NCBI RefSeq assembly: GCF_023061185.1
Contig: NZ_JAKGAK010000003.1
Span: forward strand, 186,001-250,000
Reading direction: 5' to 3'
Length of the DNA: 64,000 nt
Source of the DNA: Chromohalobacter beijerinckii
GTDB lineage: Bacteria; Pseudomonadota; Gammaproteobacteria; Pseudomonadales; Halomonadaceae
A program made the position numbers and the translations under genes. The notes under the pieces were generated by a model. It was given only the letters and a program-made list of their open reading frames with translations. It was not told the DNA's origin and searched no databases. The first letter of the stretch is position 1. Each line of letters opens with the position of its first letter. Positions 47,631 to 57,532 of the stretch are shown piece after piece.

Positions 47631-47852
47631 CGATGCCATTGTTTAACCTGGGGGCTGGATGCAGGTTGAGTCGTCCGCGATCCTTCCCTATTATACATAG
47701 GGGATAGACGTTACCTCAACACGGACAAGGAGCTGTCGCATGTTGGCAGGTGGCGTTCAGGACCGCTATCTAGTCTTTGAAATTGAGTGTGCGAAAGTGC
47801 AAGGCCAAGGTATGGCCAAGATTCGTTTGAGTCAGCAACGCGAGGGATTCGC
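47631..47852. other. Intergenic region before the complex-I-like cluster, with a small hairpin
   Basis: This 222-base space has no convincing gene. CCCTAT-TATAC-ATAGGG (47686-47702) is a perfect 6-bp inverted repeat. It lies where the promoter or operator of the eight-gene cluster is expected. AGGGAT lies just before the NuoA-like start. Confidence 0.4.
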
Positions 47853-48200
47853 ATGGAGCTGTTCGCCCTTCTAATCATTCTGATTCTTGCACTGGGCGCC
47901 GGGCTGCTGATGCAGTGGTTGCCCATGCGTCACCAGCCGCGGCCCAGTTGGTCTCAGCGCGCGCCGTTTCTGGGCGGGGGGACGCCCGACAGCCACGCCT
48001 GGAACCGCTACCACGTTCGCTACTACTCCATGACGCTGCTGTTGATCGCCTTCGAGATGGAGATGATGTTCATGTACCCGTGGGCGGTCGTGTTCGTCGA
48101 GAAGGGCATGAAGGCCATGATGGAGATGGGCATGTTTCTCGCCATCCTGTCGGTGGGCATCGTCTATGCCTGGCGTGAGGGGGTGTTCAAGTGGCAGTGA
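47853..48200 (+). CDS. Complex-I-like subunit A (NuoA-like)
   Basis: A 115-residue protein with three membrane segments, like NuoA. The conserved acidic pair of NuoA is present in LLLIAFEMEMMFMYPWAV (about 66-83), and RYYSMTLLLIAFEMEMMF matches the family core. The ATG at 47853 is preferred to an upstream extension without a ribosome-binding site. It overlaps the next gene by ten bases. In true complex I this subunit lies beside the quinone site. It opens an eight-gene run without NADH-oxidising subunits. Confidence 0.88.
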   Translation: MELFALLIILILALGAGLLMQWLPMRHQPRPSWSQRAPFLGGGTPDSHAWNRYHVRYYSMTLLLIAFEMEMMFMYPWAVVFVEKGMKAMMEMGMFLAILSVGIVYAWREGVFKWQ

Positions 48201-49501
48201 GCTGGCTGCACAAGTTCGCCGCGCGTGGCCGCGTCCCCGTGTTTCCCGTGCTGGGCAAGCAGGGGGATGGCGTACTGCGGCACCTCGCGTTATCGCCGCG
48301 AATCGAACTGGTCGACTCGCCTCGTCATGCCAGTGTCTTGCTGGTGGCGGGGGAGGTTCCGGCCGACCGCTGCGAGCCCCTGCGCCGGGTGCATGACCAA
48401 TTGCCATACCCTTTCACGACGCTGTGGTTTCGCAGCGAACCCTGGCCGCATCTGGAACGCGTGGCCCGTATCGACGATCTCGACGACCTGCCCGGTGCAC
48501 TGGTCACGGCGCATCGCGAACTGATGGAAGGTCGCCGCGGCAGTGCCCATCGTCTCCTGCCGGACGAGCCGCCCAATCCATGGGAAGGCGAGGGCGATTT
48601 CGGCCAGGGCGGTGAAGGCATGATGGGCGGGGTGCCCTACGGGCGGCCCATGGCCATGAACATGGAGGATGACATTCGCGACGGGTTGACGCTGGATTCA
48701 CTGACGTTCCGGCTGGGGCCGTTCTTCTTCGCATTTCCGCCCGGCATGGCGGCGGAGATCACCCTGCAGGGGGATCTCGTGCAGACATGGAAAACGCAGC
48801 TGGCGCCGTATCCACAGCCTCTCGATGAGGTGTTTTTCGACGCTCGCCAGCGCCCCGTCCCCATTGCGGAGGTCGAGCTTGCCCGGGCTCGCCATCACCT
48901 TCACCAGCTGTTCCATGCATTGCATCTGGCGGGCCTGGAGAACGTGAGCCTGCGGACCTTGCGTCTGGCGCATGGATTGTCGACGTCGAGTACCCTCGAT
49001 GGGCTGCGGCGCGCACTATCACGTCGCGGCTTCTTTCGCCTGACGGCGGGCGGCGGCGTGCTCGGCCCCGAGCAGGCACGCATGATCGGCGGGCCCGCCG
49101 CCCGAGCCGCCGGACTGGATGATGATCTGCGCGCGGAGGATGCCGGCTATCGACGACTGGGATTCTCCCCCGTCTGTCAGACTGCGGGCGATACCCATGC
49201 TCGCTGGCGGCAGCTTCTGGACGAAATCGACCAATCCCTTCATCTGGCCCGTCTGGCCGAACGCGACAGGGTACACACGGAGCGAACAGGCAGCGTCGAG
49301 ACACCGCGTGGCCCCTGGTCGGCGCGGCGGCCGGCGGATGCGAGCGCGCTCTTCGACGAGCTGTTACCCGGGCTAGAGTGGGGCGATGCCCTGGCGACGG
49401 TCGCCAGTCTGGATGTCGCGGGGTTGGCCGATCAACCTGTCGGCACACGGCCATCCGGCGAGTCCCGGGCGGTACGGGGAGGTACCGGGAACGATGTTTA
49501 G
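48191..49501 (+). CDS. Fused NuoB-like/NuoD-like protein without Fe-S ligands
   Basis: A 436-residue protein (GTG start). Residues about 35-110 follow NuoB in order (SPRHASVLLVAGEVPADRCE, PLRRVHDQLPYPF) but all cysteines that bind cluster N2 in NuoB are missing. Residues about 150-420 follow NuoD: DSLTFRLGPFFFAFPPGMAA, RMIGGPAARAAGLDDDLRAE and GSVETPRGPW. The NuoD end that normally holds a cysteine motif reads SLDVAGLADQPVG. Only two cysteines are present in all. It overlaps both neighbours and so is an integral part of the operon. It cannot pass electrons as in complex I. Function unknown. Confidence 0.75.
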   Translation: MAVSWLHKFAARGRVPVFPVLGKQGDGVLRHLALSPRIELVDSPRHASVLLVAGEVPADRCEPLRRVHDQLPYPFTTLWFRSEPWPHLERVARIDDLDDLPGALVTAHRELMEGRRGSAHRLLPDEPPNPWEGEGDFGQGGEGMMGGVPYGRPMAMNMEDDIRDGLTLDSLTFRLGPFFFAFPPGMAAEITLQGDLVQTWKTQLAPYPQPLDEVFFDARQRPVPIAEVELARARHHLHQLFHALHLAGLENVSLRTLRLAHGLSTSSTLDGLRRALSRRGFFRLTAGGGVLGPEQARMIGGPAARAAGLDDDLRAEDAGYRRLGFSPVCQTAGDTHARWRQLLDEIDQSLHLARLAERDRVHTERTGSVETPRGPWSARRPADASALFDELLPGLEWGDALATVASLDVAGLADQPVGTRPSGESRAVRGGTGNDV

Positions 49502-50417
49502 CGAGCTGTTTCTGCCGGTTCTCATGGTGATCTTCATGCTGGTTGTCGGCGGTTATGCCGTTGCCGTGCTCGATCGCCTGGTTGCCAGCGCGCTTGGCGT
49601 CCCCCAGGCCGGAGGTATCTGGCTGGCGCCGATGGCGCGCGGCGCCTGGTTGCTGACCCAGCACGCCAATGCCACCGAAGCGCCGGACTGGCGGGCCTGG
49701 CGGCTGGCACCGGCCCTGTATCTGGCATTGGCGGCGGGCGGGCTGGCGGTGGTGCCATGGTCGGCATCGCTGGTCGCCACGGATCTGGTCACCAGCGTGG
49801 TGCTGTGGGGCAGCGTGGAAGCGCTGGCGACCGTCGTCATCTTCTTGCATGGCTGGTCGGCGAATTCGCTACTGGCCTTGATCGGCGGGTACCGGTACGT
49901 GGCGCTGGGGCTCTCCTACATCCTGATCAGCATGTTCGTGCTGATCGGCGTGGCATTGCCGGCCGAATCGCTGCAGTTCACCCAGGTGGTGGCTTCGCAG
50001 GAAGGCCTGTGGAATGTCATCCGCCAGCCGCTGGGACTGCCGCTGTTTCTCATCGTCGGCCTGGGCATGACCTTCTGGGGGCCGCTGAACCTGGCCGATT
50101 CGACGGATCTTGCCGGCGGCACGGCCTCGGAGATCTCGGGGCCGCCACGGCTGGTCTGGGACATGGCCCGGGCGGCCATGCTGGTCGCGTTCAGCGGCGT
50201 GGCAGCGACTGCCTTCCTGGGGGGCTGGCTGGGGCCCTGGCTGCCCGGCCCGTTATGGATATCCCTCAAGATGCTGGCAGTATTGAGCGTGCTGCTGTTG
50301 CTCGGGCGGCTACTGCCGCGACTGGCGCCGGAGCGCTGCGTCACCTTGATGTGGGTCGTGTTGCTGCCGCTGTCGTTCATCGATCTGGTATGGGCCGGGA
50401 TAGGAGCGCTGTTGTGA
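49494..50417 (+). CDS. Complex-I-like subunit H (NuoH-like)
   Basis: A 307-residue membrane protein with eight or so hydrophobic segments in NuoH position and topology. Conserved traces include ALGVPQAGGIWLAPMARGAW near residue 35 and LIGGYRYVALGLSYILISMF near 128, but it is more divergent than the other membrane subunits and has fewer charged residues in the quinone-channel loops. The ATG at 49494 lies inside the stop of the fused B/D gene, and its own stop overlaps the next start. In complex I NuoH links the peripheral arm to the membrane arm. Confidence 0.75.
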   Translation: MFSELFLPVLMVIFMLVVGGYAVAVLDRLVASALGVPQAGGIWLAPMARGAWLLTQHANATEAPDWRAWRLAPALYLALAAGGLAVVPWSASLVATDLVTSVVLWGSVEALATVVIFLHGWSANSLLALIGGYRYVALGLSYILISMFVLIGVALPAESLQFTQVVASQEGLWNVIRQPLGLPLFLIVGLGMTFWGPLNLADSTDLAGGTASEISGPPRLVWDMARAAMLVAFSGVAATAFLGGWLGPWLPGPLWISLKMLAVLSVLLLLGRLLPRLAPERCVTLMWVVLLPLSFIDLVWAGIGALL

Positions 50418-51052
50418 TGGAGAGCATGAATCACGGCCTCGGTGTCGATATCGCGTTTCTGCTGCTGGCCACGCTGGCGGTGGTCACCGGGTGGCGCGTG
50501 TTTCGCACCGATTCGATGGTACGGGCCTCTTTCTTTCTGCTGGTGTCGTTCATCGCCGTGGGTGTGATCATGATCCTGTTGGCGGCGGAATACCTGGGCG
50601 TTGCCATGTTCTTCATGATGGCCGTGGAAATGACGGTCATGGCGCTGTTCATGGTCATGTTCATGATGAACCCGGCCGGCCTGAATCCCATGAACATGGT
50701 CCATCAGGAACGTATCGCCATCGGGGCCGGCGTCGCCGGTTTTCTGATACTGGGCGCCATGGCCCTGTTGGCGACCTTTCCCGATCAACCGGTGCCGGCA
50801 GGCCTCGAGCCCGTCAGATCACTGGGCAACGAAATGCTCGGTGAGTCGATGCTGATTTTCGAATCGGCGGGCCTCGTGCTGCTGACCACCATGATCGGCG
50901 TGGTGGTGCTGTCGAGCCATCGCGGGCGCTATGGCGCGGCGGCGGAGGGCTCGATGCCGCCGGGGCTGGAACCGGGCGGCGACCCGGCAGGCAAGCCCGA
51001 GGAGGACGAAGCGGGCGAGGGTGGGCATCACCATCATCACCATCACCACTGA
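50417..51052 (+). CDS. Complex-I-like subunit J (NuoJ-like) with a natural His8 tail
   Basis: A 211-residue protein with five membrane segments, NuoJ-like, with AEYLGVAMFFMMAVEMTVMA near residue 56. The ATG at 50417 overlaps the NuoH-like stop. After the last membrane segment an acidic, glycine-rich tail (PGLEPGGDPAGKPEEDEAGE) ends in GG followed by eight histidines (51026-51049). Such a terminal histidine run is unusual and could bind metal. A much longer open frame upstream is antisense/out of frame and not coding. Confidence 0.82.
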   Translation: MESMNHGLGVDIAFLLLATLAVVTGWRVFRTDSMVRASFFLLVSFIAVGVIMILLAAEYLGVAMFFMMAVEMTVMALFMVMFMMNPAGLNPMNMVHQERIAIGAGVAGFLILGAMALLATFPDQPVPAGLEPVRSLGNEMLGESMLIFESAGLVLLTTMIGVVVLSSHRGRYGAAAEGSMPPGLEPGGDPAGKPEEDEAGEGGHHHHHHHH

Positions 51053-51079
51053 GCGGCACAGCCAGGCAGGGAGGCTTGC

Positions 51080-51385
51080 ATGACACTCACCACACTTTTG
51101 CTATTGGCAGCGGCACTGATCGGTATCGGGATCTATGGCGCGCTTTCCCAGCAGTCGTTCGTGATGCTGATGATGGGTCTGGAGCTGATCCTCAACGGTG
51201 TCATGCTGGCGGCGGTGGCGTTCTGGGCCTTCAGCGGGGCCGGGGTGCCGGAAGGGCAACTGCTGACGATCATCGTCATGGCCGTGATGGCCATCGAGAT
51301 GGCGATGGGGTTCGCCCTGGTGGTCGCGGCCTTCCGCGGTAAACAGGCCGACATGACCGAATCGCTGACCGGGCTGAAACACTGA
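51080..51385 (+). CDS. Complex-I-like subunit K (NuoK-like)
   Basis: A 101-residue protein with three membrane segments, NuoK/MrpC-like. The two membrane glutamates important for proton transfer in NuoK are present: MMGLELILNGVMLA (about 32-45) and MAVMAIEMAMGFALVV (about 67-82). It follows the J-like gene by 27 bases with GGGAGG before the ATG, and its stop codon overlaps the start of the L-like gene (TGATG). Confidence 0.9.
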   Translation: MTLTTLLLLAAALIGIGIYGALSQQSFVMLMMGLELILNGVMLAAVAFWAFSGAGVPEGQLLTIIVMAVMAIEMAMGFALVVAAFRGKQADMTESLTGLKH

Positions 51386-53271
51386 TGCTGTGGTCCGTTC
51401 CTATCTTGCCGCTGCTGGCGGCCCTCGTCATTCATGGGGTCGGCAAGCGCTGGCCGGGCGACGACAGGGGCCGTGCCGTGCTGACCCTGGCGGTGGTGGC
51501 GATCACGGTCGCTACCTTGCTGCTCGTGAGTGTCGCGGTCACGGTGGACTGGAGCGGCACCTATCGCTGGAGTTCCCGAGTCGTTCTGTCGCTCGGGATG
51601 ACATCCGCGAGCGCCGTGTTCGCCATCGTCGTGCCACTGATCGCCGCGCCGATCATCGTCTACAGCGCCTACCATGAAGCATCGCCGGTCAGTGGCGGGG
51701 GAGCGGCGCGCCCCCCCGTCGGACTGGTGGCGCTGCTGACGGCGTTCGTCGGCGCGATGGAACTGCTCGTCCTGGCCGAGGATTTCGTCACCCTGCTGAT
51801 CGCCTGGGAACTGGTCGGGGCATGCTCGTGGGCGCTGATCGCCCATGAATGGCAGAAGGCCGGCAACCTGCGGGATGCCACCTGGGCGTTCCTGGTCACT
51901 CGCTTCGGGGATCTGGGGCTGTACATCGCCGCGGCGGCAGCGTTCGCCGGCACGGGCTCGTTTGCCTTTGCAGACCTGGCTCAACTCGATGGGTGGCGGC
52001 TGGACGTGTTCGTTGCCGGCGCCGTGCTGGCCGCCGCCGCGAAATCCGCCCAGGTGCCGTTCTCTCCCTGGCTGTTTGCTGCCATGTCCGGGCCGACACC
52101 GGTGTCGGCATTGCTCCATGCGGCGACCATGGTCGCGGCGGGGATCTACCTGGTGGTCCGGCTGCATGCGGAACTCTCCGCCGTCGCCTGGTTTGCGCCG
52201 GTCGCCATCACGCTGGGGCTGACCACTGCCCTGGCAGGGGGACTGGTGGCCTGTCTTCAGGGCCATGCCAAGAAGCTGCTGGCCGCCTCGACATCGGCCC
52301 AGTATGGCCTGATGTGGCTGGCGGCAGGGGCGGGCTTTCCCGGCGTCGCCCTGGTGCACTTCGTCACGCATGCATTCACCAAAGCGGCGCTGTTCCTGGC
52401 CGCCGGCATCGCCGAACGCCATGTCGACAGCTATTCGCTGACGGCGATGCGCCTGGGTCGCCTGCTTCCTGGCGTCGCGGCAGCCAGCATGGTGGCCAGC
52501 CTGGCGCTGGCGGGCGTCGTTCCGCTGAGTGCGGCGTGGAGCAAGGAGAAGATCGTCACGGCCGCCGGCCATCAGGCGCCCTGGCTGGCCGTGATCGTCG
52601 CCGTGGCGGCAGGGCTCAGTGCGCTGTACGCCACGCGCTTTCAACTGCTGGCGTTCGGGCGGGGGCGGCATGACCGCATGAGCGAGGCTGTCTCCCGGCC
52701 CGGCCACTCCTGGGCGGAAGCCGTCGCGCTCTATCTGCTGGCGGCAGGCACATTGGCACTGTCGCTACTCTGGTGGCCCGGTGTCGGAAATGGCCTCGCC
52801 GATTTGCTGTCCGTGCACTTTCCCGGGACCAGGCCGTGGGAACTCATCCTGTCGCTACTGCTGGTGGCGCTGGGCATTGGCCTGGGTGCCTGGGCGGTGC
52901 GTCGTGAGGTGTCGAGCCAGCAGAGCGAAACGCGTACCGCTATGGCGGACTGGTTTGGCCTGCCAACGCTGTCAGCACGTGGCGTGAATGCCGTGATGAT
53001 GTTCAGCCATGGCCTGGCACGCTTCGATGATCGCGCCGTGGATGCCGGGATCCGGGGCAGTGCCCGCTTTGGTGCGTGGCTGGCCAGGCTGGGAGAACGG
53101 CGTGGCGAAGGCGCGTTCGATGGTGCCACGAACCAGCTCGCGAAGGGCATCGACTGGGCGGGACAAGTGGCACGTCGGGCGCATACCGGGCAGATGCATC
53201 ACTACTACACCGGTATCGCGGCCGGACTCGCCGCGATCCTGATCATCCTGAGCATAGGAGCGCTCCTTTGA
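51385..53271 (+). CDS. Complex-I-like subunit L (NuoL-like proton-pumping subunit)
   Basis: A 628-residue antiporter-like subunit with about 16 membrane segments. Key proton-path residues of NuoL are kept: the glutamate in LLIAWELVGACSWALI, the lysine in LAAAAKSAQVPFSPWL followed by SGPTPVSALLHAATMVAAG, and a late lysine in PLSAAWSKEKIV. The long C-terminal segment with a lateral-helix-like part (about 490-600) suggests true NuoL rather than an MrpA fragment. It starts on the stop of the K-like gene; the M-like gene starts inside its own stop codon. Confidence 0.9.
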   Translation: MLWSVPILPLLAALVIHGVGKRWPGDDRGRAVLTLAVVAITVATLLLVSVAVTVDWSGTYRWSSRVVLSLGMTSASAVFAIVVPLIAAPIIVYSAYHEASPVSGGGAARPPVGLVALLTAFVGAMELLVLAEDFVTLLIAWELVGACSWALIAHEWQKAGNLRDATWAFLVTRFGDLGLYIAAAAAFAGTGSFAFADLAQLDGWRLDVFVAGAVLAAAAKSAQVPFSPWLFAAMSGPTPVSALLHAATMVAAGIYLVVRLHAELSAVAWFAPVAITLGLTTALAGGLVACLQGHAKKLLAASTSAQYGLMWLAAGAGFPGVALVHFVTHAFTKAALFLAAGIAERHVDSYSLTAMRLGRLLPGVAAASMVASLALAGVVPLSAAWSKEKIVTAAGHQAPWLAVIVAVAAGLSALYATRFQLLAFGRGRHDRMSEAVSRPGHSWAEAVALYLLAAGTLALSLLWWPGVGNGLADLLSVHFPGTRPWELILSLLLVALGIGLGAWAVRREVSSQQSETRTAMADWFGLPTLSARGVNAVMMFSHGLARFDDRAVDAGIRGSARFGAWLARLGERRGEGAFDGATNQLAKGIDWAGQVARRAHTGQMHHYYTGIAAGLAAILIILSIGALL

Positions 53272-54755
53272 TTTTGACTGCAGCCCTGGGGCTTCCCATG
53301 CTGGGGGCCCTCGCACTCGCCGTTTCAAGCCGTTGGACCGAGACCGCGGCTCGCCGGTGTGCCATCGTGGTCTCGGTGTTGCCGGTGTTGTTGCTGGCCT
53401 GGGCGTGGCGACAGTTCGATCCGCAAGGTGTGCTATTCCAGTTCGTCGAGGAGGTGCCCTGGGTCCCCAGCCTGGGCATGGGCTACAGGTTGGGCGTGGA
53501 TGGCATTGCCCTGGCTGTCGCGACGATGAGCGCTCTGGTCTTCTCGGCGAGTATCGCCTACCCCGTGGATACGAAGCATCAGCCTCGCCAGTACTACGCC
53601 TGGATGCTCTTCCTGCAGTCCGTGTCACTGGGTGTCTTCCTGGCGCTGGACCTGCTGCTTTTCTATGTCTTTTTCGACCTGAGCCTGGTGGGGATGTTCT
53701 TCCTGATCGGCCGTTGGGGACATGGCCAGGCGCAGCTCGCCGCGTTCAAGTTCTTTCTATACACCTTCTTCGGCTCGCTGTTGCTGCTGTTGGCGATCAT
53801 CGGGCTTTATCTGTCGGTCGAACCGCGTACCTTCGACATGCGCGTGCTTATCGAGCAGCAACCGCTGGCGGGCGCGGGCATGACGGCTGGCCTGGTGTTC
53901 CTCGCCCTCATGCTCGGCTTCGCCATCAAGACACCGGTGGTGCCTGTGCATACCTGGCTGCCCCAGGCGCATGTCGATGCCCCGGGGCCGGTCTCGGCGA
54001 TTCTCGCTGGGGTGCTGCTCAAGATGGGCACTTACGGGATCATCCGCATTCCATTCGCCATGATGGCGGAGACGTTCTCTCGCTATGCCCTGATCATTGC
54101 ACTGTTCGCGGTCGCGTCGATTCTCTACGGGGCCTTCGTGGCTCTTGGTCAGAGTAACCTGAAGCGACGCATTGCCTACACGTCGGTCAATCACATGGGC
54201 TACACGGTGCTGGGGATCGCGGTGGCCGGGGCCCTGATCCAGGACACCGAGTATGCCCGCGAGCTGGCCCTGGTGGGGGCCACGGTGGAAATGGTGGCGC
54301 ACGGCCTGATTACCGGGGCGCTGTTCCTCATCTGTGGCTCGTTCTGGCAGCGTACCGAGGAGTATGACCTGGACAGCTATGGTGGTCTGCTTCGTCAGGC
54401 CCCGTGGCTGACCGCCTTCGCCGTGCTCGCGTCCTTTGCCAGCCTGGGCCTGCCCGGCCTGGCCGGTTTCGTGGCGGAGTTCCATATCTTTGCCGGCACC
54501 TTCGGTGTCTATCCATGGCTCGCCGTCATCGGTGTGCTGGGCATCCTGGTGACGGCGGCGCTGTTTCTGCAGATGCTGCAGAAGGTGTTCTTCGGGGCGA
54601 TGCCGGAGCGCTGGGCGCAGTTCGAGGATCTGCGTCCCATCGAGTGGGGCGTGCTCGTGGTGCTGTCGGCAGGCTTCGTGCTCATCGGCGTGGCGCCGGC
54701 GTTTCTGCTGACCCTGGTCGAAGCATCGGCGGCACTGCTGGTAGGAGGCCGCTGA
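53268..54755 (+). CDS. Complex-I-like subunit M (NuoM-like proton-pumping subunit)
   Basis: A 495-residue antiporter-like subunit starting at a TTG inside the stop of the L-like gene. The central lysine is kept in FAIKTPVVPVHTWLPQAHVD, and the later glutamate in GLAGFVAEFHIFAG. The membrane-5 glutamate (WE in E. coli NuoM) is replaced by aspartate in FYVFFDLSLVGMFFLIG. It has about 14 membrane segments. Its stop overlaps the N-like start (TGATG), so translation is probably coupled. Confidence 0.9.
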   Translation: MILTAALGLPMLGALALAVSSRWTETAARRCAIVVSVLPVLLLAWAWRQFDPQGVLFQFVEEVPWVPSLGMGYRLGVDGIALAVATMSALVFSASIAYPVDTKHQPRQYYAWMLFLQSVSLGVFLALDLLLFYVFFDLSLVGMFFLIGRWGHGQAQLAAFKFFLYTFFGSLLLLLAIIGLYLSVEPRTFDMRVLIEQQPLAGAGMTAGLVFLALMLGFAIKTPVVPVHTWLPQAHVDAPGPVSAILAGVLLKMGTYGIIRIPFAMMAETFSRYALIIALFAVASILYGAFVALGQSNLKRRIAYTSVNHMGYTVLGIAVAGALIQDTEYARELALVGATVEMVAHGLITGALFLICGSFWQRTEEYDLDSYGGLLRQAPWLTAFAVLASFASLGLPGLAGFVAEFHIFAGTFGVYPWLAVIGVLGILVTAALFLQMLQKVFFGAMPERWAQFEDLRPIEWGVLVVLSAGFVLIGVAPAFLLTLVEASAALLVGGR

Positions 54756-56164
54756 TGCCTATCGGTGACGTATTGCCGGAAATCAGCCTGACGCTCGGCG
54801 CCGTGGCGATTGTCCTGTTCGCCAGCTTCGTCCGTCAGCGGCAGCATCACTGGGCAGCCGTGCTGGCCCTGCTCGCCATCGGCCTCGGTGCGGGGCTGAC
54901 CGTCGCGCAATGGGGCGGGACGCCGCGGCTGACGTTTTCCGGTGTCTGGGCGCTGGATGGCGTGGCGCTTGCCAGCAAGCTGGTCGTGCTGATCGCCGGT
55001 GCGCTGGTCGTCGCGATGTCGCCTGAATGGATGCGGACCGATCGCCGCCATGGCGAGTACTATGCGCTGGTGCTGTTCGCTCTGCTGGGCGTCATCATGA
55101 TGGCATCGGCCAGCGATACCATGGAGCTGGTGTTGGGCGTGCTGCTGTCCTCGGTGGCGAGTTACCCGCTGGCCGCCTATCACCGTGGCTGGGCGCCCGC
55201 GCTGGAGGCCGGGATGAAGTATTTCCTGATCGGCGCCTTGACCAATACGTTGTTGACGATCGGAGTGGTGGTGCTGTTCGGCCTGACCGGCAGTACCGGG
55301 TATCCGGATATCGCCCAGGCGCTTGCCACGGACAGCGACCGCCTGGCACTGACTATCGCCACGGCCTGCGTGGTGCTGGGGCTGACCTTCAAGCTGGCGG
55401 CGTTTCCGGCTCACGCCTGGATGCCGGACGTGGCGCAGGGTTCACCGGTACCGGCGGCAGCCTTCCTGACCGTCATTCCCAAGATCGGCGCCGCGGTAGC
55501 GCTGGCCCGCTTCGTTTCCCTGTTGCCGCCGGATGTCGCCTGGCGAGCGATCGTGGCATCGATCTCCGTCGCCACCATGACGCTGGGCAACGTGGCGGCG
55601 TTGCGCCAGACGGACGTGCGTCGCCTGCTGGGCTGGTCATCGGTTTCCCAATCCGGATATGCCCTGATGGCCATTGTGGTGCTGGGTGTCAGCGACCAGG
55701 CCCTGCCGGCGCTGGTGTTCTTCCTGGCGAGCTATGCCACGGCCAACCTGGCCGCCTTCGCCGTGGTCACGCACCTGCGGGGACGTACCGCATTGGACGA
55801 TTACCGAGGATTGGCCCGGCACGCACCGATCGCGGCCACGATACTGATCGTGTCGCTGTTATCCCTGGTGGGCATCCCGCCGCTGGTCGGCTTCTTCGGC
55901 AAGCTGATGCTGTTTCGCGTCACCCTCGAGGGCGGTTACGCCTGGCTGGCGCTCGTGGCGGTGATCAACACCGTCGTCTCGCTGTTCTATTACTTGCGCA
56001 TCGTCGCGCCGATGATGTTCGGTAGTCGCCAGTCCGCCGTGCATGTGCTGTCGGGCCAGTGGGCGCGCTCCGCGATGGCCGTGGCGGGCGTGCTGCTGAT
56101 CGTCGGAGGGCTCGGCGCGGAAGCTCTCTCGTTATTCACAGGCTCGATACGCTTTGCCCTGTAG
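54755..56164 (+). CDS. Complex-I-like subunit N (NuoN-like proton-pumping subunit)
   Basis: A 469-residue antiporter-like subunit with 14 membrane segments. Key residues are kept: glutamate in ASDTMELVLGVLLSS, lysine in LGLTFKLAAFPAHAWMPDVA and lysine in LVGFFGKLMLF. It begins in the stop of the M-like gene. It is the last of eight coupled genes; egtB starts 63 bases later with its own ribosome-binding site. Presence of NuoN as well as L and M separates this cluster from Mrp antiporters and from simple DabB-type transporters. Confidence 0.9.
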   Translation: MPIGDVLPEISLTLGAVAIVLFASFVRQRQHHWAAVLALLAIGLGAGLTVAQWGGTPRLTFSGVWALDGVALASKLVVLIAGALVVAMSPEWMRTDRRHGEYYALVLFALLGVIMMASASDTMELVLGVLLSSVASYPLAAYHRGWAPALEAGMKYFLIGALTNTLLTIGVVVLFGLTGSTGYPDIAQALATDSDRLALTIATACVVLGLTFKLAAFPAHAWMPDVAQGSPVPAAAFLTVIPKIGAAVALARFVSLLPPDVAWRAIVASISVATMTLGNVAALRQTDVRRLLGWSSVSQSGYALMAIVVLGVSDQALPALVFFLASYATANLAAFAVVTHLRGRTALDDYRGLARHAPIAATILIVSLLSLVGIPPLVGFFGKLMLFRVTLEGGYAWLALVAVINTVVSLFYYLRIVAPMMFGSRQSAVHVLSGQWARSAMAVAGVLLIVGGLGAEALSLFTGSIRFAL

Positions 56165-56227: not shown

Positions 56228-57532
56228 ATGTCACCCGCTCAAGGTTTGACAATCGAAACGCCAGATAGCCTGCATATCAAGGAATGGTTGCGCGCGTACC
56301 AGCGGATCCGTGCCGCCACCGAGGCCATTTGCGCGCCTCTGCACAAGGAAGATTACATGGTGCAGAGCATGCCGGATGTCAGCCCTCCGAAATGGCACAT
56401 CGCTCATGTCAGCTGGTTCTTCGAAGCCTTCATTCTGAAACCGTTTCATCCCGCCTACCAGACTCTCGACCCCGCGTACGACCACCTCTTCAATTCCTAC
56501 TACGTGACTCACGGTACGCCGTTTCCCCGGCCCGAACGCGGCATGATCTCGCGGCCAACCGTGGACGATGTCTATCGCTATCGCGCTCACGTCGACCGGG
56601 CCATGGAAGAGCTGCTTAATGACCCACCTCAGGAACATCTCCAGGAGATTCTCCGACGTCTCGAGCTGGGCCTGCCGCATGAACAGCAGCATCAAGAACT
56701 GCTGCTGATGGATATCAAGCACATCCTGGCCCAGAACCCGCTGTGCCCGGCCTATCGGGACGACCTGGCGCCGACGCCTGTGCATGAAGTCGCTGCGCTC
56801 GGCTGGCATGCCTATCCGGCCGGCGTCCAGTACATCGGCCATGACGACACCGAAGAGGGGTTTGCCTATGACAACGAGATGGGGCGCCACCGCCAGTTCG
56901 TCGAGGCTTTCCAGATCGCCGACCGTCCGGTGACCAACGGCGAGTTTCTCGAATTCATGCGGGCGGGCGGATACGACAAGCCCGATCACTGGCTGTCGGA
57001 CGGCTGGGCCACGGTCAAGGCCGAAGGCTGGCAGGCGCCGCTCTACTGGGTCGAGCGTGACGGTGTCTGGCACCACTACACTCTGGGTGGCCTGGTGCCG
57101 GTCGACATGAACGCGCCAGTGTGCCATGTCAGCTTCTATGAAGCCGATGCCTATGCGCAGTGGGCCGGTGCCCGCCTACCCACCGAGGCTGAGTGGGAGA
57201 CAGTGGCTCATGATGCCGCCATTCAGGGGAACTTCGTCGAACAAGATCATCTGCAGCCGGTCTCCGCCGCCGGGTCCACAGGTGTGCTGGGACAGATGTT
57301 CGGTGATGTCTGGGAGTGGACGGGCAGCGCCTATCGCCCCTATCCGGGATTTCGCAAGTTGCCGGGCAGCCTGGGGGAATACAACGGCAAGTTCATGTCC
57401 GGCCAGATGGTGTTGCGAGGCGGCTGTTGTGCGACGCCGGCCGATCACATCCGCGTCACCTATCGCAACTTCTTCCCGCCTCATGCCCGCTGGGCATTTT
57501 CCGGTTTCCGTCTTGCCAAGGAGAGCCTCTGA
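56228..57532 (+). CDS. egtB: Ergothioneine biosynthesis protein EgtB-like sulfoxide synthase
   Basis: A 434-residue iron enzyme: a DinB-like domain (about 15-175) and a formylglycine-generating-enzyme-like domain (about 190-430). Iron-binding histidines are seen in PPKWHIAHVSWFFE and LPHEQQHQELLLMDIKH; the C-terminal part contains FGDVWEWTGSAYRPYPGF and MVLRGGCCATP. EgtB joins cysteine or gamma-glutamylcysteine to hercynine. The ATG follows AGGAG. The methyltransferase EgtD is not next to it; argC follows on the other strand. An OvoA-like role is less likely because no methyltransferase domain is fused. Confidence 0.87.
   Translation: MSPAQGLTIETPDSLHIKEWLRAYQRIRAATEAICAPLHKEDYMVQSMPDVSPPKWHIAHVSWFFEAFILKPFHPAYQTLDPAYDHLFNSYYVTHGTPFPRPERGMISRPTVDDVYRYRAHVDRAMEELLNDPPQEHLQEILRRLELGLPHEQQHQELLLMDIKHILAQNPLCPAYRDDLAPTPVHEVAALGWHAYPAGVQYIGHDDTEEGFAYDNEMGRHRQFVEAFQIADRPVTNGEFLEFMRAGGYDKPDHWLSDGWATVKAEGWQAPLYWVERDGVWHHYTLGGLVPVDMNAPVCHVSFYEADAYAQWAGARLPTEAEWETVAHDAAIQGNFVEQDHLQPVSAAGSTGVLGQMFGDVWEWTGSAYRPYPGFRKLPGSLGEYNGKFMSGQMVLRGGCCATPADHIRVTYRNFFPPHARWAFSGFRLAKESL

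Follow-up and report, generated by a model that had tools for sequence, protein, structure and literature searches.

A predicted redox-silent relative of respiratory complex I in Chromohalobacter beijerinckii, with a possible role in Cu(I) transport

In respiratory complex I (NDH-1), quinone chemistry in the B/D/H cavity is coupled via the A, J, K and H subunits to three antiporters. Here, we describe an eight-gene relative of this enzyme (the module) at 47853–56164 of a 64,000-nucleotide stretch of the Chromohalobacter beijerinckii genome, which is called the window throughout. Tentatively, we read the module as a redox-silent offshoot of complex I that couples the flow of protons to the passage of a soft metal, most probably Cu(I), through the inner membrane.

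The module shares with complex I the subunits A, H, J, K, L, M and N, a B/D-like peripheral protein, the NuoD fold and the channel lysines and glutamates. Unlike complex I, it has no C, E, F, G or I and no Fe-S or quinone ligands. It has methionine-filled A, J and K subunits, metal modules of the His or heavy-metal-binding (HMBD) type and, in many relatives, copper genes as neighbours. DabAB/MpsAB also contains a NuoL-type subunit, thought to use the proton-motive force, but the module has eight subunits and no DabA partner among them (no Pfam match to DUF2309 in these eight proteins). Group 4 [NiFe] hydrogenases carry two CxxC pairs of NiFe ligands in their large subunit; no such pair is present in the window B/D protein, which has only two cysteines. 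The energy-converting-hydrogenase-related (Ehr) complexes have a subunit set of their own, in which the hydrogenase-like subunits lack cofactors.

The Mrp antiporters (CPA3) are likewise redox-free and place antiporter-like subunits beside a cation path near NuoJ/K homologues; in the accessible part of PMC7419157, the C-terminal part of MrpA is a NuoJ homologue and is read as lying in a putative Na+ domain. Mrp is hence a precedent for our working model. The module differs in that it has A, H and B/D in place of MrpB, E, F and G, whose Pfam families gave no match among the eight proteins; all eight match Nuo families.

Two published gene sets are closer still. The available text of PMC8233155 describes a NuoADHJKL 'complex I-like' operon inside the copper-resistance locus of Marinobacter atlanticus, co-expressed with the cop genes. 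It resembles the module in combining complex-I-like genes with copper resistance, and differs in being described as seven genes without M and N, in one strain, with copper redox as the energy source. The available parts of PMC3314556 and PMC6002675 report a seven-gene partial NDH-1 operon, nuoAHJKLMN, of Salinispora and Kocuria, linked to marine adaptation through proton or sodium pumping. It bears the same seven nuo names and, judged by gene names alone, perhaps represents actinobacterial members of the family; the B/D gene could be annotated as hypothetical there. In the text at hand, the word 'copper' does not occur in PMC3314556, nor in the main text of PMC12361115, a survey of complex I genes that includes plasmids. 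The portions of PMC6305408 and PMC8478169 available contained nothing on the module. An earlier note on this DNA had named the system as its best candidate for an undescribed one. The word undescribed holds for the eight-gene family and for metal transport by it, since no paper defining the one or proposing the other was found in the open-licence literature; it does not hold for the Marinobacter operon and the partial NDH-1, which, from the parts of those papers available, had already been reported.

Gene content, distribution and conserved residues

The module consists of eight same-strand complex I homologues, and no C, E, F, G or I gene lies between A and N:

47853..48200, + strand: NuoA-like subunit, methionine-rich (11.3% Met); PF00507, E 3.5e-24
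48191..49501, + strand: fused NuoB/NuoD-like peripheral subunit without Fe-S or quinone ligands
49494..50417, + strand: NuoH-like subunit; PF00146, E 2.3e-38
50417..51052, + strand: NuoJ-like subunit with methionine-filled transmembrane helix 3 (TM3) and C-terminal His8 tail; PF00499, E 5.7e-19
51080..51385, + strand: NuoK-like subunit, both channel glutamates retained; PF00420, E 1.7e-15
51385..53271, + strand: NuoL-like antiporter subunit; PF00361, E 6.5e-42
53268..54755, + strand: NuoM-like antiporter subunit; PF00361, E 1.8e-65, and TIGR01972; TTG start at 53268 or 53274
54755..56164, + strand: NuoN-like antiporter subunit; PF00361, E 2.3e-59, and TIGR01770 above cut-off

The genome also has a complete canonical nuo operon on a different contig, so the module is an extra and not the cell's complex I.

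Relatives were collected by scanning GTDB contigs with a B/D alignment, which gave 116, of which 80 were kept. The carriers belong to Halomonadaceae, Salinisphaera, Marinobacter, Bowmanella, Stutzerimonas and many Alphaproteobacteria; further copies came from one metagenome-assembled genome (MAG) labelled Burkholderiaceae and three labelled Actinomycetota. The order A-BD-H-J-K-L-M-N was found in all 71 of the 80 loci that hold both A and N. In these, the matches to the core queries were directly consecutive, with no E, F, G or I between them. Eight of the remaining nine loci stop at the end of a contig or stretch and the ninth (L149) is cut inside L, with a recombinase gene adjoining. Nine plasmid regions were inspected; the module was present in the annotation of eight, and in H. 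sulfidaeris it appeared as split matches only. The annotated plasmid copies likewise encode no E, F, G or I with the module.

With the B/D profile, 17 of 369 gammaproteobacterial genomes (own included) scored at least 177 bits and the next genome 51 bits. One additional gammaproteobacterial genome (G469) is fragmentary. In a phylum-wide draw, 4 of 299 genomes (own included) matched B/D at E 1e-15. With so few matches in both sets, the family is rare and patchy.

Trees were built from 36 hand-picked loci of 106. In the NuoH tree, the 37 sampled family rows formed a single clade (97/95) apart from 13 canonical NuoH, and in the NuoM tree the 36 sampled family rows did so (100/98) apart from canonical NuoM. 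The window L grouped with E. coli NuoL and the window N with E. coli NuoN, both on long branches. Two sub-clades were seen. The window falls into the one with a short B/D; the other comprises 10 sampled rows, of which nine combine HMBD motifs with His-rich linkers in B/D and one (L080), assigned by its tree position, has no such motif.

Two further loci were recorded. L149:12814-16678, from a Kiloniellaceae MAG, is a natural broken copy in which the interrupted L gene is followed by a serine-recombinase-like gene; a multicopper oxidase lies upstream. In another genome of the same order, L036:2819-9913 is a different complex I relative with a weak match to the window B/D. It has two NuoM-like proteins followed by separate D-like and B-like genes, and is perhaps hydrogenase-like.

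The residues of electron transfer are missing. The only cysteines of the window B/D, Cys61 and Cys329, lie in no ligand motif, and the ligands of the NuoB Fe-S cluster N2 were not found in it. Counted at any position, a CC dipeptide is present in 9 of 105 family B/D open reading frames (ORFs). The quinone-site residues of NuoD, which we take to be a loop His and a Tyr, are also lost: of 105 family B/D sequences, 104 have Pro where E. coli has His224, and at the position of Tyr273, 84 have a gap and 18 have Pro. The family alignment is gapped at many canonical NuoD positions. In NuoH, several of the canonical charged residues are missing or replaced by the shorter Asp.

The channel residues, by comparison, were mostly retained. 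In K, E36 is present in 102/102 sequences and E72 in 97/102 (Asp in five). L retains E144, K229, H254, K342 and K399. In L, over 90% of the family keep E144, K229, K342 and K399, and the same share holds for K234, K265 and E407 of M and for K217, K247 and K395 of N. The exceptions are the E144 position of M, which is Asp in 79 of 97 family sequences, including the window copy, and E133 of N, which is Leu in 92 of 94.

From these comparisons, the predicted proteins have lost the electron chemistry (no E, F, G or I in the module, no NuoB cysteine ligands in the window copy, no quinone-site His/Tyr in the family) and have preserved the putative proton paths of L, M and N together with the K glutamates. 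As judged from sequence, the eight-gene set is a real, coherent, redox-silent complex I family.

The same residues bear on the idea that the module serves as an additional complex I by borrowing E, F, G and I from the canonical nuo operon. The host does carry that operon in full, and a PF01512 gene was found in all 24 carriers tested, although this NuoF family also holds other enzymes. With the N2 ligands missing from the window B/D, the quinone residues lost and many canonical NuoD positions gapped across the family, we consider this very improbable.

Most of what the earlier note had read from the window was supported. The eight same-direction genes without C, E, F, G and I were confirmed by Pfam matches and by the conserved order, and the survey of relatives it had suggested turned up neither a different order among the loci spanning A to N nor any linked missing subunit there or in the annotated plasmid copies. 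Its statements that NADH oxidation and Fe-S electron transfer cannot work as in complex I, and that L, M and N keep the membrane lysines and most glutamates, agree with the residues above, and its separation of the module from Mrp and DabAB agrees with the Pfam results. A CO2 or carbonate role, a CO2 link having been among its suggestions, was dropped: DabA was not matched among the eight proteins and no other pointer was seen, carbonate genes among the neighbours not having been searched systematically. Overall, its interpretation was partly supported.

Methionine set and metal-binding appendages

Methionine is enriched only in A, J and K, which in complex I link the quinone cavity to the antiporters. 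The median content in the family versus canonical proteins was 9.2% versus 3.2% for J, 7.8% versus 1.7% for A and 8.9% versus 7.1% for K (5–12 canonical proteins per subunit, taken from carriers). In B/D, H, L, M and N, it was lower than in the canonical proteins.

The positions are conserved as well. In J, M34, M67, M68, M72, M75, M79, M83, M84, M92, M94, M145 and H96 were present in all aligned family sequences and M159 in 98%; five canonical NuoJ have other residues at the conserved Met/His positions. The position of E. coli NuoJ Tyr59 is Met in 103/103 family J. In A, M69, M71, M74 and H54 were found in 99–100% of the family, and in K, M29, M31, M70 and M74 in 92–100%. Accordingly, A, J and K carry what the alignments indicate to be a conserved methionine set.

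A low-confidence structure model of J (predicted local distance difference test, pLDDT, 72), used for helix limits alone, places TM3 at helix 60–84 followed by a loop at 85–97, with M92, M94 and H96 in the loop. Its best Foldseek matches were NuoJ chains. A stripe of methionines on one face of TM3 was considered and rejected: for all seven it was not significant (p 0.15), and the five that do fall on one helix face are a subset picked afterwards.

The appendages are of more than one kind. A His-rich C-terminal tail was found on 70 of 103 family J and on none of five canonical ones, and an HMBD motif in 17 of 105 B/D. Most copies (86 of 102) bear one or the other, that is, a predicted metal-binding tail on J or motif in B/D. 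In both proteins tested (L032 and L079), PF19335 HMBD and Complex1_49kDa were matched within a single protein. On a Pseudonocardia plasmid (L042:12250-13722), reading the B/D frame back beyond its annotated start gives a B-like half and a long His-Gly-Glu repeat; the annotated start hence looks too far downstream. This repeat is a third kind of His-rich module and is outside the 86/102 count.

Copper-resistance genes around the module

Among loci flanked by 8 kb or more of sequence, 33 of 76 had a strict copper-resistance marker, compared to none of 20 random 20-kb segments from carrier genomes (Fisher p 1e-4). In total, 63 markers lay in 924 kb of flank. The markers had been drawn from seven annotated family loci, which were excluded from this count. 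Duplicates were dropped by name (L028, L029, L030, L076, L077 and L132), as were L038 and L093; L093 is present as L141, and the H. sulfidaeris plasmid (L038/L132) is hence uncounted. When loci with less than 8 kb of flank were included, 40 of 99 had a marker. Among the loci with a short B/D, the count was 30 of 65.

We also clustered the neighbours without markers (1040 ORFs at 106 loci, including the seven plasmid loci; names from annotation, domains or by eye). The commonest families were multicopper oxidase (22 loci) and CopB (18), followed by a response regulator and EgtB (15 each) and by EgtD, cytochrome c and a P-type ATPase (12 each).

The plasmid copies give individual examples. The module lies beside copC, copD, plastocyanin/azurin, CopA oxidase and CopB in Halomonas KO116; beside cueR, a P-type ATPase and an oxidase in Roseivivax and Acuticoccus; beside a P-type ATPase and a 'metal-sensitive transcriptional regulator' in Pseudonocardia and Rubrobacter; beside a multicopper oxidase and a sulfocyanin-like protein in Arthrobacter FB24; and beside a CusA/CzcA-type resistance-nodulation-division (RND) pump in Sulfitobacter. 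For the Paracoccus copy, no copper gene was found within the fetched stretch. Among 121 Halomonadaceae genomes, CopB was present in 21 of 26 module carriers versus 41 of 95 non-carriers (p 0.0008, uncorrected for phylogeny). In the window genome, CopB is on a different contig from the module.

Some copies share an upstream direct-repeat box with the consensus ATTCAGnTTGCnTTCAGG, which was derived by aligning the regions upstream of the module. At up to two mismatches, 18 of 106 loci, all Halomonadaceae, have the box immediately before the module. Since the box was derived from the same data, only copies outside the module are independent. Such copies precede the copA oxidase in L116, L121 and L125 and, at a distance of 109 bases, an APC permease in L037, L106 and L108; matches in L086, L111 and L115 and one in L117 have no assigned gene. 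A 400-kb control gave no match. In the window, a scan at up to three mismatches gave no match, and the alignment gave the following:

47744..47761, + strand: degenerate copy of the upstream direct-repeat box ATTCAGnTTGCnTTCAGG with four mismatches, read from the upstream alignment

Taken together, the counts argue that copper-resistance genes are enriched around the module and that the upstream box is common to a few loci. The copper link is clear in the family counts, which are uncorrected for relatedness, and absent at the window locus. It is visible only in relatives, as are the methionine-rich A, J and K and the metal-binding tails and domains in their family-wide form, and the earlier note had missed it.

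Several observations weigh against a copper function. The window has no copper marker in its 64 kb, and its box is degenerate. No marker was found within the flanks of 43 of the 76 loci, and just 3 of 11 HMBD-clade loci have one. Some copies sit on chromosomes at a distance from any marker, and some, L080 for instance, stand among housekeeping genes. CopB is absent from 5 of 26 Halomonadaceae carriers. Moreover, the loci are related, so that the counts are not independent, and the markers came from annotated loci of the same family. A marine or halophilic habitat could account for part of the copper pattern. The methionines of J TM3, as noted, do not form a significant one-face stripe. Finally, the control with canonical nuo loci adds little: none of the 13 loci fetched had a marker, but one proved to be without nuo genes and the flanks of the remaining 12 sum to just 53 kb.

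The marker-free copies and the halophile or marine names of many carriers fit a different machine: an Mrp-like system for Na+/H+ exchange or pH homeostasis in salt-loving and marine bacteria, with the copper genes as fellow passengers of mobile islands. The seven-gene partial nuo operons have been called marine adaptation genes (available parts of PMC3314556 and PMC6002675). Such a machine leaves the conserved methionines of J, A and K, the His tails and the HMBD domains unexplained. In addition, the module stands beside a P1B-ATPase and a metal-sensitive regulator, or beside a multicopper oxidase, on actinobacterial plasmids, and the genome appears to have Mrp already, to judge from another contig (C12), which carries two additional Proton_antipo_M genes with the size of MrpA/MrpD. 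We regard this explanation as unlikely.

The regulatory candidates other than the box were not retained. A CueR operator was present in 2 of 92 upstream regions at up to three mismatches and was dropped. A palindrome, CCCTAT-N5-ATAGGG at 47686–47702, was found in 1 of 92 upstream regions by the first pattern; its arms recur with a 2-base spacer in the Chromohalobacter relatives L095 and L098, and were not found in the Salinicola-type loci L094, L096, L100 and L107. At most, it is a feature of the genus Chromohalobacter.

Downstream of the module, the window contains a neighbour outside the complex:

56228..57532, + strand: EgtB-like (ergothioneine) gene; FGE-sulfatase and DinB_2 domains

This family, annotated as egtB in L037, travels with the module in Halomonadaceae. 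No egtD was seen after the EgtB-like gene in the window. A copper-thiol link of the ergothioneine genes near the module is possible.

Other companions were seen at single loci or in islands. A Cys-rich small DUF326 protein is encoded directly upstream of the module at L109:9151-9495 and L118:9232-9570; we presume a resemblance to four-helix copper-storage proteins. At L102:5896-8413, mercury-type genes (an HMA-bearing reductase of MerA type and small HMA-like proteins) lie just upstream of the module. The APC-family permease recurs in the islands (L037:9160-10494, L106:3567-4901 and L108:1379-2712; also L032, L034 and L040).

Proposed function and significance

A metal/proton antiporter would be the simplest machine that uses all parts of the module. 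Methionine is a ligand of Cu(I) and Ag(I) and the neighbours are copper genes, so Cu(I) would be the likeliest metal. In the proposed mechanism, cytoplasmic His/HMBD modules would collect the metal, which would then travel along the methionine-rich face of A, J, K and H while protons run inward through L, M and N, the two movements being coupled. Cu(I) would thereby be exported and, once in the periplasm, be dealt with by CopA, CopB and cytochrome c. Evolution of such a machine would have deleted the chemistry of complex I, left the antiporters intact, rebuilt the coupling link with soft-metal ligands and added metal-binding tails. In its full form, as a new class of metal pump in which A, J, K and H provide a methionine-lined Cu(I) path and three proton channels power the export of copper gathered by a cytoplasmic His/HMBD collector, we hold the proposal with more reserve than the general one of soft-metal movement.

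The direction depends on topology. We assume from complex I that the C-terminus of J is cytoplasmic, which is why export is favoured. The same machine running inward, as a metal uptake system feeding copper to cuproenzymes, would share all metal-linked features, and the sequence allows either direction. Uptake nevertheless seems improbable, as the linked genes are resistance genes (P1B-ATPase, CopA, CopB and CueR) and the presumably cytoplasmic tails fit a donor site for export.

Copper could also act as the fuel rather than the cargo. A Cu(I)/Cu(II) or copper-linked electron step would then drive outward proton pumping through L, M and N. The retained proton channels and the multicopper oxidases and cytochromes c among the neighbours agree with this. 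In the module itself, on the other hand, neither a known electron carrier site nor any quinone-site residue is left, and the oxidases and cytochromes, which we take to be periplasmic, are encoded outside it. A copper-redox-driven pump, the idea put forward for Marinobacter in the accessible text of PMC8233155, is in our view rather unlikely.

How the quinone chemistry of complex I drives distant proton channels is a long-standing question. A natural homologue without the chemistry, with all three antiporters kept and the A/J/K link rebuilt with methionine, would offer a testable handle on this coupling. If Cu(I) export is the correct reading, the membrane coupling of complex I can run on metal-ion movement instead of quinone reduction. 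If copper is what is moved, the module would join P1B-ATPases and RND pumps as another type of copper transporter. Most of the module genes are called NADH-quinone oxidoreductase subunits in genome annotation. Such names may inflate complex I counts and may hide a resistance function that is sometimes plasmid-borne.

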